Positions 7,853 through 40,456 of a stretch of DNA of 50,683 bases are shown here, in pieces. Under the pieces are notes generated by a model, which was not told where the DNA came from, made no database searches, and worked only from the letters and a program-made list of their open reading frames with translations. This stretch comes from Stentor roeselii. Its lineage: Eukaryota; Ciliophora; Heterotrichea; Heterotrichida; Stentoridae. Numbering within the stretch: the stretch's first letter is position 1; each line of letters starts with the position of its first letter. The DNA lies in the NCBI GenBank assembly GCA_006503475.1, contig RSEH01000312.1, positions 1 through 50,683 of the forward strand, read 5' to 3'. A program made the position numbers and the translations under genes.

Positions 7853-10139
7853 ATGGATATACGCTGTTGTATCGAACCCTGCCCAGGCAGCCCAAAGTTC
7901 GGGACTCGCGAAGACAGAAGGCAAGTCTTCTGCATAGAGCATCAAAACACTCCCTTCAGTGACTCAAGTCAGTTCTACGAACGCATTCCTCTGGAACAAC
8001 TTCGGTCATCGACCATGGCGATGGCTGAAATGGGAAAACTCTCTAGCATGGTCACTGAAGTCATGAGGACTGGCAAGGGCATGTTCCAGGAAATATGTGA
8101 GAAACTCTGCAATATCACTGACGAACTTGCAAAGAGACAGCACGACTTACTTGAGATTGCTCAGAATGTCTCTCAAGAAAAATCGGCTGATGAAATCTCG
8201 AAACTTGGAGCTGTTGGAATCAAACTTAGAAATCGAGAAGCCTTTTCTAAATTGGTTGAACAGCACTTCTCCCAGCATGATGCCACAGTGGACTTTGCAC
8301 TCTTTTCTGAAGATATCAAGGGCATCAGAGAGCAACTTCAAGAAAGTAACAATCTCATTGGAATCGTCAGACAAGAAGCTGCTCAAGATAGAGAAGTTAG
8401 AGAAAATATCATGAAAAGAATGGACAATGCTGAAAACCAAACTCAAAATATCAGAAATGAATTAACTCAGCAAATTACTCAGTTGAGAGAAACGACACTG
8501 AAGAGAGAAGTACAACTTGCCAGCAAAGGCGATATTGACCGTATTAGAGATACTCTTATAGATCATCAATCAAGTATTGACTTAAATAGTCAACTAATTG
8601 AGCAATTAACCAAGTGTTGTGATAATATCAAGGATGGAGCCAATGTGCATAGTGAACAAGTGATTAAACTTGAAAACGATACCAAGTCCAACTTTGAAAT
8701 CCTGGCTCAGAAATATCAAGAATTCACTGCTCAACTAAACGCCAGTGTAGATGATTTCAAGGAAATTCATGCTCAGACCATTGCTGACCAAGAGCGAACC
8801 AGGGATGAAGCTTTCAAAAAAGCAACTGAAAGCATCAATACTGACTTCAGAGAAAAATCTGACAGAGATATTAACAGGATTAATGAACTTACAAGGAAAA
8901 TCAATGAAGATGCTAATCAAGCGATTTTGAGAGCTCAGACAAAAATCAGAGAGTTTGAGGTTGACTTCACCAGAAACATACGAAGAGAAATTGATGAGTA
9001 TAAAGAGTTCAAAAAGGCGGAAATTATCAGAATTGAGCAGGAAAGACTCAAGAAAATTGAAGATGATAGAATCGCTGAAGAAATGAGATTGGCTGAGTTG
9101 AAGAGAATAGAGGATGAAAGGTTAGCTGAGATAAAGAGACAGGAAGAAATCAAACAAGCTGAGTTAAAGAGGCAGGAAGAAATTAGGCAAGCTGAGATAA
9201 AGAGACAGGAACAAATAAGACAAGCCGAAATAAAAAGACAAGAAGATGAAATACAAGCTGAAATTAAAAGACAGGCTGATGCCAAAAAGGCCAAAGAAAT
9301 TGAAGATCAGCGTATGATTTACGAAGAGAAATTTAATAATTGGCCAATTGAGCAAAAAAGAAAACATTTTGAAACACTTAATCTTCAGAGTTATCAGAGT
9401 AATTTTACAGGGAATAATGCTCAATATGTGAAAGAAATCAGGATTTCTGATGATGGAAAATATGGATTTGTTTGTATTTGATAGCTAGGTAAGTTCAAAC
9501 AGATGGTATCTGAAATCAAGGTATTAAAACGAAAGATGGTACAAAATACTGAGGTATCAAAAACTTAAGATTGTGGATACTATCTAGGTATGGCAAATAA
9601 AGATAGTACATGCTACTGAGGTAGTTTACAATTAAGAAAGTAGATACTATCAAGGTATGAGAACTAAAGATGGTAAAGGTTACTGAGGTATTTAAAATTT
9701 GAGATCGTTGATACTATCTAGGTATGTGAACAAAAGGTGGTAAAGAATATGGAGGTGGTTTAAATTAAGGTCGTATACACCAAGTAGGTATATGACAAGC
9801 AGCAGGCTGTAAGAACCACAGAAGATGGTTCTAATTACTAAGCAGGCAGTAGAACTACTCAGGTATGAGTAAAAATGATCGTAGATACAATTAGCAGGTA
9901 GTATTTTCTAAGGAGGTATCAGTAACAAAGACCGTAGCATTAAACAGAAGGTTGTATTTCTAAAAAGGTATCAGTAATTGAGACTGTAGATCTAATTAGT
10001 AGGTAATTCCTACTTAGTGACTGTTTACAATTTGGAGACTAAGAAAGATGAGCTATGGCGTGACTGGCATACAAATGCAAAAGCAAGACAATGGAAAGAC
10101 AGGTACCCTGAGTGTGTGTTTCAAGAATGGGGATATTAA
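7853..10139 (+). CDS. Cys-rich/coiled-coil protein with WD-like C-terminus, intron-array gene 1
   Basis: The first exon (7853-9473) encodes a Cys/His cluster at residues 5-30 (CCIEPC...FCIEHQ, B-box-like), then a long coiled coil. Within it about residues 395-485 form a charged 11-residue repeat (variants of IKRQEEIRQAE). The exon ends in ISDDGKYGFV, the start of a WD-like strand. Read unspliced it stops at 9479 (TGA, then TAG). Removing a dense series of 14-16 nt GT-AG introns between 9474 and 10017 leaves 57 exonic nt, giving YDDYKNDRG, then about PGYAGTGKGLV. The reading continues as TVYNLETKK to a TAA at 10137-10139. The model is 599 aa. The tail RYPEC.F...GY is shared with the gene at 11553-12520, which supports the joined model. 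The parse of 9803-10017 is less certain than 9474-9802. Function unknown. Confidence 0.75.
9863..9894 (+). other. Nested intron pair (intron within intron), copy 1
   Basis: A 16-nt GT-AG segment (9869-9884) interrupts another after its sixth base. Removing it joins 9863-9868 to 9885-9894 and regenerates a 16-nt intron, gtatgaatacaattag. The same 6 + 16 + 10 layout recurs twice downstream, which makes chance unlikely. Confidence 0.65.
9916..9947 (+). other. Nested intron pair, copy 2
   Basis: The inner 16-nt GT-AG segment is 9922-9937. Its removal leaves 9916-9921 joined to 9938-9947, the 16-nt GT-AG unit gtatcacattaaacag. The layout is identical to copies 1 and 3. Confidence 0.65.
9968..9999 (+). 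other. Nested intron pair, copy 3
   Basis: The inner 16-nt GT-AG segment is 9974-9989. Its removal leaves 9968-9973 joined to 9990-9999, the 16-nt GT-AG unit gtatcaatctaattag. Confidence 0.65.
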
Positions 10140-11552: not shown

Positions 11553-12520
11553 ATGGCTATAAATATGTCCTGCAACTCAAGCAGTAGTTCAGATCCCTGC
11601 AAGGTTAAAGCTGAATGTATATGTAAAACTTGCAAGACTGATAACTTATTTTGTACGGATCATGGAAAACATCACTCAAATCACTCAAAACATCAAGTTG
11701 AGTTAATCAGTAACTCAGAATTGGAGCAAATTTGTATGAATAGGTTAAAGCAAGAAATTAAGAAATGTATTTCAAGGATAAGTGAAACTTCTAAGGAATC
11801 CATTTCTTTAATTAAACAAGTTACCATATCGACGATTAAAAACTTAAAGAAGCTGAATAGGGATGCAACATTTTTGAATCAATTTCAGATCTCTGATTTT
11901 GATCTTCAAGAAATTAAAGATCTAGAATTTGAGATTAAAGAATATTCATTCCAAATGAATACTTTTATTGAAAAGAAAATCGTAAACTTATTTTCTGATG
12001 TCTTTACCAAAAACCAACAAGTAAAAAAGAGCGAAGAGAGATTAAAAGGTTAACCATATGTAGGATTTCAAACTCTGAATAAAGAAGAGAAGTTTAGATT
12101 TTTTTGGGGAATTTCTCATAAATATTGGAGGACTGAAATCGGCTGCACAGAAGAAGAAGTTCAGAACTGGTATCAAGAACTACTATTTTCCAAAGATGGA
12201 AAATATTGTTTTTTCTGTAATCATTACTCAGGTAATATTCGAGAAAGATTGTAGCCTACATGAAGGGGGTAACCTTGAAGAAGGCCGTAACCTAGATTCA
12301 AGATAGTAACCTACAACGAAGATAGTAACCTTAATCAAAGGCGGTAACCTACATTTAGGTAAGGGATATAAAAGACTGTATCATCTAAGTAGTGGAAGTT
12401 TGGAACCTGAATACCAAGAAAATTGAGCTAGACACCGGGACCCCGAAAGATGACAAGACAAGAGAGTGGCTAGTTCGCTACCCGGAGTGTTGTTTCAGCA
12501 AGATGGGCTACTTTCTTTAG
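11553..12520 (+). CDS. B-box zinc-finger protein with WD-like C-terminus, intron-array gene 2
   Basis: A B-box-like zinc-binding region lies at about residues 16-50 (CKVKAECICKTCKTDNLFC, then DHGKHHSNHSKH). A helical region follows (about 60-165). A 15-nt intron at 12049-12063 (gttaaccatatgtag) hides a stop and leads to FQTLNKEEKFRFFWG. Then LLFSKDGKYCFF runs into intron array 12217-12392. Splicing gives YWGHNSDL, then EVWNLNTKK, then a tail with RYPECCFSKMGY and a TAG at 12518-12520. The spliced model is 265 aa. Start: 11553 is the first ATG, but 11565 has the better ataaatATG context and could be used. The C-terminal third is paralogous to that of the gene at 7853-10139. B-box proteins bind partners through zinc modules and coiled coils; the role here is unknown. 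Confidence 0.8.
12049..12063 (+). other. 15-nt intron, gttaaccatatgtag
   Basis: It removes the in-frame TAA that otherwise ends the B-box frame. The joined codon GGA continues the same frame into a region related to the upstream paralogue. Length and GT-AG ends match the heterotrich intron type. Confidence 0.85.
12217..12392 (+). other. Intron array 2: ten 15-16 nt introns, seven 3-nt microexons
   Basis: Introns: 12217-12231, 12232-12247, 12251-12265, 12269-12283, 12287-12302, 12306-12321, 12325-12340, 12344-12358, 12359-12374 and 12378-12392. All are GT-AG and exactly 15 or 16 nt. Microexons of 3 nt start at 12248, 12266, 12284, 12303, 12322, 12341 and 12375. Two intron pairs abut with no exon. 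Every intron falls after the first base of a codon, so eight successive codons (Y W G H N S D L) are each split. Unspliced, the block looks like a 19-bp tandem repeat (gtaacct...). The parse is unambiguous apart from the order of removal. Confidence 0.85.
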
Positions 12521-37996: not shown

Positions 37997-40456
37997 CTAA
38001 TCCACTATTACCTGGTCCTCTTGCCCCTTGCTTCCTTGGCTGATGTCTTCAGAGTCTTCAGGGTCTTCAGGGTCTTCAAGGCCTTCAAGGCCTTCAGGGT
38101 CTTCAGGGTCTTCACTCATTTCTTCTTCCTCAACCTGCTCTTCTTTTTCCTCTTCAATCTTCTCATCTTGGGCCTCTTCTCCGAACTTCTTCAAGAAGTT
38201 ATCTTCCAACTCTCTCAAATACTTACTTCGAGATCTTTTCAACTCTCGGCCCTTTTCCCCTAAGGACTTCTTCAAGTTCATTTTTTCAACATCCTCTACT
38301 TCAGACCTTTCCGTGAAATGCTCCTGGTTCGCCTTCATCAAAGCTCTGACATGAGCAGCGACTGACAACCCGAGAGCCGAAACAGTTCCTCCTTTGATTC
38401 CGTATCCGCCTTCTAAAACAGAAACAACTCTTCCCTTACAACAAGTATTCGCAATTCTTATAACTTCTTCAGTGATCCAGCGAAAGTCATCTTCATCCAA
38501 ATCAACAAAGCCATGATTTATATCATCAAGTCCATGTGCATCAAAACCAGCAGATATTAAAATCAAATCAGGTGCAAAAGCAAGAAGTCTCGGAAAAACA
38601 GTTTTTCGATAATCTGTTTAAAACTTACATTTACGAAATGTGAGAGAGTCTGTCGCCTTTTGAAGTGGAATGTTGACTACACCTCCTGGGAATAAGTCTT
38701 CTCCAGTGCAAGCAGTTCCTGAAGCAGGGTAAAAAAAGCCATGACCTTCTCGACCATAAGCATGAGAAGAGATAAACAACACATTTTTCGCATCGTCTTC
38801 TGAGAGCCAGGGCTTGTAACTGTCGTATTCCAGGCAGCCTAGGGCCATAGGAAGGTTTAAAGGCATTTTTAACTTAGTAGGTCTCAGATTTCTCACAATT
38901 GCTTCAGTTCCATTGCCGTGATGGACGTCAAAGTCGAGAATTGCTACTTTTTGGACTAGTTTTGAATACATGTACTTCGAGTAAGCTGCACCGATTGACA
39001 CGTTGTTGAAAAGGCAGAAACCGTTCGAAGTTAAACTTGGGTCTTCTTCAGAGGACACTGCACCGAAAGGACCAACATGGTGACCTGGAGGCCGAACACA
39101 GCAGAAGGCGTTTTGGGTCAGGCCTTGTAATACTGAGTCTACTGCATCGATCACGGCACCTGCTGCGTGAAGAGCTGATTGGAAGGACTCTGAAGTGACG
39201 CGAGTGTCGACATCAAATCGACTTGGAAGGGATCCAGGAGTTAATTTTGAAATAAAATCTTGAAGTCTTTTTATGTATGAATATTCGTGAACTCGGATTA
39301 TATCTGCTATGCTCGCTGGATTTACTGAAACTTTCCAGGTTAAGTCTGAAAACTCGTCGGTCATTAAAGAACCTGCTGGACCGTTTGATATGTAGAAAGT
39401 TGGAGATTTTAATTGGGGTCTTGGAAAGGAATGGAAATTTGCATCGCTTTGGATTGAATGGTCGGGGTTTGATTCTAGAAGTTCTGAACAGAGGTGGACT
39501 TCGCTCTCGGGTAATGCTACTTGACTAACCCCACTATCCACGCCATCAACTCCCATTTTCATACTTATTCCACTAGAACATCCTAAAATCCTTTCAAGCC
39601 TAACAGGATTTTCAGGTTGCATCATTAAAAACTTGAACCAATCAAATCTTTTCCTAATATCCCCGGAGAACCCTGCATGTAAATAGCAGAGTTCATCAGT
39701 AAAAACCATAGTTTTATGAGAAGCCTTCGTTTTAATTCCATTAGTCGCAGCAAGAAACTCTTGATAAACTCCGCAATTTCTAGCGACTTCCGCTGGAGTC
39801 TGTTCAAATTCATTTAACTCATTAAGCATTTCCTCAAAAGCGAAAGACAAAAGTACTTCAAAGCAATCCCAAGCCGCTGCCCTGACAGCGACATGAATAG
39901 GTTTATCTCCTCTTGCATCATTACAAAAGAACATATCGCTTCCTCCTTCTTGAATGATAATCTTAAGACATTCAGGCTGATTATATTCGATAGCATAGTG
40001 AATAGGCATCTTTCCAGCGAAGTCTTTAGTTTCGAGTTTGATCCCTGCGGAGATGAAGGGAATGACAAGATCAGCAGGTCCATTCATGCAAAGCAAATGA
40101 AGAGCAGAGCGGCCCAGGCGGTCTCTTTGGCTGATGTCTTGTTTGTGATCAGCGAGGACCTGCACCATCTGAATGACAAGAGGTTGTTTTTCCTTGAAAG
40201 CCGCAAGAGACATGACGAGGTGGACAGGGTGAAGTCCTTGAAAAGTGACTTCTTGGTCTACATTCGTTTTAAGCAGCAAGTCCATGCAAGTAGGATGACC
40301 ATTTAATATGCTCAGCTGATAAGGAATCAACCCGTCTGAGTCCTTGTCAAACAAACTACGGGGGTCGAAGTCCTCACTTGTCAAGTAGGCCTCCAGATAA
40401 GCCGTGTTGCCTTCGATGCAAAGAGAACAGAGGTCGATTTCTATTACGCTTGACAT
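37997..40456 (-). CDS. Ankyrin-repeat / class II histone deacetylase fusion
   Basis: Two frames joined by a 15-nt intron (38614-38628) give 814 aa. Residues about 10-230 are ankyrin repeats (RDRLGRSALHLLCMNG, DFAGKMPIHYAIEYNQPECL, GDKPIHVAVRAAAWDC). Residues about 370-720 are an arginase-fold deacetylase with RPPGHHVGP (H459, H460), GFCLFNNVSIGA, ILDFDVHHGNGTEAI (D510, H512), ISAGFDAHGLDD (D634) and LEGGYG; all catalytic and zinc-ligand positions are present. The tail is acidic with tandem EDPEDPEGLEGLE-type repeats. Such enzymes deacetylate histones or tubulin; the ankyrin part suggests a protein partner. The stop is TAA at 37997. The gene starts 18 nt after the stop of DCAF7 on the same strand. 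Confidence 0.93.
38061..38116 (-). repeat. 9-bp coding minisatellite
   Basis: About six copies of a 9-bp unit (forward strand tcttcaggg or tcaaggcct) encode the acidic (E-D/G-P/L) triplet repeat in the HDAC tail. Such runs are prone to length change in steps of three residues. Confidence 0.85.
38614..38628 (-). other. 15-nt intron in the HDAC gene
   Basis: On the minus strand it reads gtaagttttaaacag. Without its removal the frame stops inside it (TAA). With removal, TFRK joins directly to YYRKTVFPRL, LAFAPDLILIS and AGFDAH, the expected HDAC order. It is the only intron I could demonstrate in the core region. Confidence 0.93.

Follow-up and report, generated by a model that had tools for sequence, protein, structure and literature searches.

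We find that a 50,683-nt stretch of Stentor roeselii DNA (contig RSEH01000312.1, hereafter the window) very probably carries a real exon-intron array. The array belongs to a subtelomeric gene family of this Stentor-like ciliate, and its consecutive one-codon exons would code for the hairpin loop in a single WD40-like blade. Comparison within the genome gives good support both to the array and to its codon-by-codon coding; the splicing itself is predicted from DNA. An initial annotation had described a single block of tiny introns. Beyond that block, we identified a second array in the window and a genome-wide family, of which 60 blocks were analysed.

The window begins at a contig end made of CCCTAACA telomere repeats and contains two tandem genes of one family at 7853-10139 and 11553-12520, both on the + strand (Table 1). 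Gene 2 starts 1.4 kb downstream of gene 1, and its array lies 2.2 kb downstream of that of gene 1. In each gene a Cys/His-rich N-terminus is followed by a helical or coiled-coil region, and the C-terminal stretch spans about 80-100 residues. The first exon of gene 1 holds the Cys/His-rich N-terminus, the coiled coil and the first half of the blade (…ISDDGKYGFV). The open frame stops after …DGKYGFV in gene 1 and …DGKYCFF in gene 2 and reopens at …VYNLETKK and …VWNLNTKK, respectively, with short GT…AG segments filling the gap between the broken frames. An antisense or unspliced reading is rejected, as both arrays contain stops in every one of the six frames. No in-frame TGA was present in 19 long ORFs, which, like the telomere repeats and the 15-16-nt introns, fits Stentor. 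The coiled-coil coding part of gene 1 contains a 33-nt tandem repeat at 9124-9275 (TRF), a period close to the intron-intron-codon unit (33-34 nt) of the adjoining array, which may be coincidence.

Table 1. Features of the two tandem genes and the contig end (positions in the window)
Feature	Position	Strand	Basis or content
Telomeric repeat (ACACCCTA)n at the contig end	1..144	.	TRF and CCCTAACA positions
Gene 1, first long exon	7853..9473	+	ORF list, TRF
Gene 1, array (block of the initial annotation), 31 predicted introns of 14-17 nt	9474..10017	+	exons of 0, 3 and 6 nt and one of 18 nt
Gene 1, last exon, …TVYNLETKKDELW…RYPECVFQEWGY and stop	10018..10139	+	sequence; tblastn matches to paralogues
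Gene 2, first exon, Cys/His-rich N-terminus and helical region	11553..12048	+	ORF list, parse
Gene 2, ordinary single 15-nt intron GTTAACCATATGTAG	12049..12063	+	open-frame test, parse
Gene 2, second exon, ending …SKDGKYCFF and T	12064..12216	+	parse
Gene 2, array, 10 predicted introns (15 or 16 nt) and seven one-codon exons	12217..12392	+	identical frame-free and frame-constrained parses
Gene 2, last exon, (L)EVWNLNTKK…RYPECCFSKMGYFL and stop	12393..12520	+	parse; paralogue matches

The three forward frames of the gene 1 block contain 15, 20 and 17 stops. GT-AG segments of 14-16 nt, taken without overlap, account for 85.5% of this block, compared with at most 50% in 300 order-1 Markov simulations and 27.8% in the best 544-nt tile outside both arrays; the best tile without overlap to the block reached 39.5% and contains the gene 2 array. 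An intron model based on length, six 5' positions and seven 3' positions was trained on the 60 family blocks described below, with neither frame nor stop information. It called 31 introns between 9474 and 10017, and leaving the window's contig out of training changed neither the intron count nor the peptides of gene 1 and gene 2. The coverage, the stops in all frames and the family-wide restoration of frame thus bear out the tiny-intron array that had been proposed here. Its count of about 32 introns comes close to the 31 called by both versions of the model, while the proposed intron share of about 90% was too high (466 of 544 nt, 86%). The exons had been described as mostly of 3 nt. In the frame-constrained parse this holds for 14 of the 30 junctions, but 12 (about 40%) have no exon at all, three have 6 nt and one has 18 nt. 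The first two thirds of the array consist of intron-intron-codon units, a run of which accounts for the 67/134-nt repeat reported by TRF.

The first nine array codons of gene 1 give YDDYKNDRG, exactly as originally written, and PGYAG follows. The stable part of the reading is YDDYKNDRGPGYAG; at the corresponding position two related copies, C493 and C517, have YHDY. From about 9840 the frame-free parse is off by one base and finishes out of frame. The frame-constrained parse (…PGYAGSMSKNDRDQGYLVTVYNL…) retains the 18-nt piece and scores 4.1 log units below the frame-free one (90.7 vs 86.6). For these reasons the longer string PGYAGTGKGLV stands only as far as PGYAG and is, as a whole, one of several readings; the parse of the last third, after about 9840, is uncertain from DNA alone. 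An earlier and cruder parser had left the block in frame 2 with 8 stops. At 9849-9999, as in gene-1-like copies elsewhere, predicted 14-nt introns are followed by CAG, AAG or TAG, resembling NAGNAG acceptors.

The gene 2 array, which served as the main test case, is cleaner than that of gene 1 and is unambiguous: frame-free and frame-constrained parses coincide, also when the window's contig is left out of training. Its ten introns are separated by 0, 3, 3, 3, 3, 3, 3, 0 and 3 nt, giving two intron-intron junctions, and the one-codon exons ATT, GGG, GCC, ATA, ATA, GCG and ACT read YWGHNSD(L). The predicted spliced reading is DGKYCFF-YWGHNSD-LEVWNLNTKK, and over the array the predicted spliced gene reads DGKYCFFYWGHNSDLEVWNL. 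A 19-nt tandem repeat lies at 12287-12331.

The 44.4-Mb genome has 136 places with a pattern of three introns and two 3-nt exons, whereas the reversed pattern occurs 16 times. A genome search with the gene 1 block gives 28 places, one of them the block itself, and the predicted spliced protein of gene 2 gave at least 75 genome matches. Eighty fetched loci were merged into 49 regions, to which 16 short regions were added. Together these held 63 C-terminal places, 60 of which have an upstream anchor and form the blocks analysed, C435, C486 and C235 being dropped. Each block is bounded by a conserved exon on both sides; 51 were found by homology and nine only through the intron pattern. C127, C477, C227, C23 and an array near 180000 on C92 lie outside this set.

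Within the 60 blocks the intron-only model predicts 888 introns of 14-18 nt, compared with 330-351 per set in 20 dinucleotide-shuffled sets. The 828 spacers comprise 520 of 3 nt and 192 of 0 nt, and 807 are multiples of three, whereas the corresponding shares in shuffled blocks are 3.1%, 3.1% and 41.6%. The frame to the downstream exon is restored in 53 of the 60 blocks (shuffles 11-26), and 46 are in frame and free of stops (shuffles 0-1). With the nine pattern-only blocks left out, 44 of 51 are in frame and 39 stop-free. The associated P values (1e-18 and 7e-15) are too small, because the blocks are paralogues and not independent. Seven blocks end out of frame, the gene 1 block among them, and seven more are in frame with stops. 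The trained model replaced a first parser with hand-set penalties, which penalised GTG and GTT starts as well as 14-nt introns. That parser was applied to 35 blocks with N and C anchors from the 49 merged regions; 33 were parsed (C473 and C39 gave no parse), and 14 of the 35 were in frame (frames 14, 14 and 7), 12 of them stop-free.

Arrays of this kind were also seen outside the set. In C227:501-3691 on the minus strand (L018) the first parser predicts 84 introns in a 3.2-kb stretch, and the array there comprises 33 units of 15+15+3 nt (33 nt each), with nearly constant introns and changing triplets. The array near 180000 on C92 (L077-L080) has a different C-terminal exon (…VYDAKSGKALTAFNQ…), so the one-codon layout extends past the 60 blocks. 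Among the genome matches listed, drawn from 75 and 150 scored candidates, none of this family ran through the loop without introns, the uninterrupted matches being long WD40-repeat ORFs. Thirteen pattern matches in viral contigs included no confirmed relatives.

We evaluated the codons that the frame-free parse yields. All 53 in-frame blocks are entered in phase 1. Array codon 1, whose first base comes from the upstream exon, is Tyr in every one of them, and codon 2 is Phe, Trp or Tyr in 41, whereas re-dealing the same triplets 1000 times gives 8.6 on average and at most 17. The array codons include 12 stops among 686, against 42.2 (26-58) when re-dealt, and the other two readings of the same exons contain 47 and 87 stops against 13. 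Array length is highly variable in the 46 fully open blocks, at 5-25 codons and 7-29 introns. The aromatic codon 2, the Tyr at codon 1 and the scarcity of stops are signs of selection acting at the amino-acid level, and we know of no way for untranslated repeats to produce such codon constraint. Together with the gene 2 array and the restoration of frame without knowledge of frame, this constraint on the microexons supports the earlier proposal that each residue in the loop of a WD-like blade has its own microexon.

An unlikely alternative to one-codon exons is that the array, once transcribed, leaves the RNA as a single long intron or a few of them, or stays in part, in which case the GT-AG spacing would be a minisatellite relic and the triplets would be untranslated. 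Near-identical repeat units do occur in many arrays (TRF), including the 33 units of C227 and four identical units in a row in C30, and in both of these some units have been copied together with their codon; the regular spacing therefore derives in part from duplication. Untranslated triplets, however, would not give frames restored in 53 of 60 blocks, few stops and an aromatic codon 2. Furthermore, a single intron of 140-600 nt would be foreign to a spliceosome of 15-16-nt introns as reported (PMC9505925).

A very unlikely reading is that the genes are pseudogenes or that arrays which once held one-codon exons are now decaying, with many copies, perhaps including gene 1, no longer making protein. 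The gene 1 block is out of frame in the frame-free parse, 14 of the 60 blocks have lost the frame or contain stops, and in C227 read in phase 1 each CTT followed by AGA would make a TAG, so that this copy may be dead or read otherwise. Against this, 46 of the 60 blocks are fully open and their codons are constrained, which argues that the family as a whole is not dead. Single copies may nevertheless be pseudogenes.

The predicted introns behind the one-codon reading comprise 462 of 15 nt, 310 of 16 (together 772), 95 of 14, 20 of 17 and one of 18 nt, counts that depend on the parse because in gene-1-like copies a 14-nt intron plus a NAG triplet is indistinguishable from a 17-nt intron in the DNA. 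They start with GTA in 824 of 888 cases, with another GT in 63 and with GC in one; the model required GT or GC and AG, not the A. An A at -6 or -7 is present in 814 of 888, a preference that is partly built in, as the starting model favoured A at -6. The consensus of the 16-nt class is approximately GTAACCTACATCGAAG. Heterotrich introns have been described as 15-16 nt long (PMC9505925, PMC11441545), and the 95 predicted at 14 nt fall below that range. In 22 of the 60 copies the frames at the junction of coiled coil and blade are joined by one 14-16-nt intron, 12 of these introns starting with GTT rather than GTA (compare 12049-12063 in the window).

These features bear on whether the segments are RNA introns at all. 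Ciliates delete internal sequences from macronuclear DNA (PMC9942806), and the segments could in principle be retained internal eliminated sequences, or be bypassed by ribosome hopping. We regard either as extremely improbable, since the segments begin with GT, end with AG, favour an A at -6 or -7 and have a predicted length of mostly 15-16 nt, all of which are spliceosomal marks, and since single introns of the same kind occur in ordinary genes, with at least 14 listed joins besides a histone-deacetylase-like gene. The last of these, named by eye, lies in the window, where an ordinary 15-nt intron GTAAGTTTTAAACAG at 38614-38628 on the minus strand links two ORFs.

The predicted introns share with those of Stentor coeruleus and Blepharisma stoltei, as reported, the GT-AG ends, a predicted length of mostly 15-16 nt, the GTA start and a branch-point A near position 10/11 (PMC9505925, PMC9942806, PMC11441545). 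For S. coeruleus, 8806 annotated introns are reported, 92.8% of them of 15 nt; 18% of genes have introns, mostly one, and the authors were unsure of genes with more than eight (PMC9505925). In contrast, in the 46 fully open blocks 7-29 predicted introns of mixed lengths lie in one loop, with one codon or nothing between them. Micro-exon genes (MEGs) of Schistosoma mansoni are likewise a family with tiny exons, mostly multiples of three, and variable proteins (PMC10526429). Their exons, however, are described as 3-81 bp, most often 15 bp, and their introns as 0.1-5 kb, against one-codon exons and 14-17-nt introns here, and their product as a secreted disordered protein, against a predicted coiled coil and one blade (PMC10526429). 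The present genes fall outside that class, as their exons fit it and their introns are of 14-18 nt instead of long.

At the ratchet points described in Drosophila a donor also directly follows an acceptor, and an insert is removed stepwise (PMC8605326). Those ratchets divide long introns and are reported to need a downstream cryptic exon (PMC8605326). In the present arrays, introns abut at 192 of 828 junctions and the predicted steps are of 14-17 nt. Introner-like elements and intron gain by tandem duplication resemble the arrays in that near-identical introns are multiplied within and between genes (PMC4457414, PMC4974935); in the present case, by contrast, all copies are confined to one loop of one family, one per codon and all in phase 1. 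A search of titles and abstracts, with the text of the S. coeruleus genome paper outside its scope, returned no description of one-codon exon arrays.

We compared a profile of 18 members, spliced as predicted, with the PDB. WD40 proteins ranked first, weakly (TUP1, E 0.047; SMU1, 0.16; RACK1, 0.25-0.31), and Pfam found no family above the cut-off in the spliced proteins, WD40 included, so the WD40 reading draws on weak profile matches. The alignment of family members contains the hairpin S-x-DG-[K/N]-[YF] … [LV]-x-V-W-[ND]-[LI]. Intronless WD40 repeats of the same genome read FSSDGNFVASGSDDKTVKVWNLKEKREEF within a long ORF, were uninterrupted in four of four fetched stretches and align well with the array flanks. 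In this alignment the seven array codons of gene 2 occupy the position of the seven-residue turn SGSDDKT. The predicted spliced flanks thus resemble one WD40 blade, and the array would correspond to its variable hairpin loop, codon by codon. Gene 1 and gene 2 each show one blade, not several closing a ring, and a single blade is not a propeller. Uninterrupted WD40 repeats also abound in very long ORFs of this genome, of about 2000-2500 aa, for example C339:262276, C27:122603 and C183:8861. Eight N-termini gave no match to the Pfam B-box zinc finger of B-box/TRIM-like proteins; PF00643 has 49 matches in the genome and none on the window's contig.

These data allow us to propose how such a transcript would be processed. 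One-codon exons, all in phase 1, would lie between predicted spliceosomal introns of about 15-16 nt, some being predicted at 14. The 0 or 3 nt between introns is far less than the span covered by a spliceosome, so the introns must leave one after another. Abutting introns would represent a longer insert removed in 15-16-nt steps, as at ratchet points. The most likely order is that of a zipper running 5' to 3', in which each removal would add one codon to the upstream exon and set the next GT at its end. The predicted product combines a Cys/His-rich N-terminus with a coiled coil and a single blade, and the loop of this blade would vary between copies in length and sequence. This layout suggests a recognition protein, in which single codons could be gained or lost without breaking the frame.

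We further evaluated how introns and microexons diverge. In unit pairs with 90-100% alike introns the exon likeness is 0.327 and 0.403 against 0.321 by chance, and within one array it is 0.429 and 0.396. Over the 32 comparisons of neighbouring units in C227, there are 18.3 differences per exon position and 2.0 per intron position. The paralogues C288 and C99 differ at 6 of 97 intron, 12 of 27 microexon and 69 of 180 flanking positions. In 13 of the 14 listed paralogue pairs with matching layout the introns are less diverged than the microexons, the exception being the closest pair, the near-duplicate C50-C513 (introns 5/91, microexons 1/39, flanks 8/180). Simple diversifying selection on the codons, which C227 and the alike-intron unit pairs might suggest, was rejected, because microexons differ between paralogues about as much as the flanking exons do. 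The unusual feature is therefore the likeness of the introns, which are homogenised or held to consensus while the codons drift apart.

The family is concentrated near contig ends. Among the C-terminal places in the first 49 regions, 43 of 47 lie within 20 kb of a contig end and 38 of 47 point away from it; on contigs longer than 60 kb, 24 of 28 places lie within 20 kb of the end against 7.4 expected. Telomere repeats are present at the relevant ends of at least C244 (the window's contig), C5, C36 and C70. By analogy, the variable loop, the coiled coil and the many copies near chromosome ends resemble recognition or surface-variation families. A tentative and rather doubtful extension of this analogy is that the array acts as a codon-shuffling device, in which near-identical introns would serve as homology patches and recombination and slippage would add, drop or swap codons in frame, keeping a recognition loop changing. 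If that were true, it would be exon shuffling at the smallest possible unit, with the introns homogenised and the codons free.

If RNA confirms the one-codon array, these genes would rank with the most finely divided coding sequences known. Such genes could have been missed, because read mappers and gene finders are unsuited to 15-nt introns around 3-nt exons. Spliced as predicted, they would mean that a spliceosome defines one-codon and even zero-length exons dozens of times in a row with introns of about 15 nt. This would exclude models of simultaneous recognition of neighbouring introns, and the arrays would provide a strict test for the recognition of tiny introns. For the family itself, the loop would represent coding variation organised per codon, with introns more conserved than exons.
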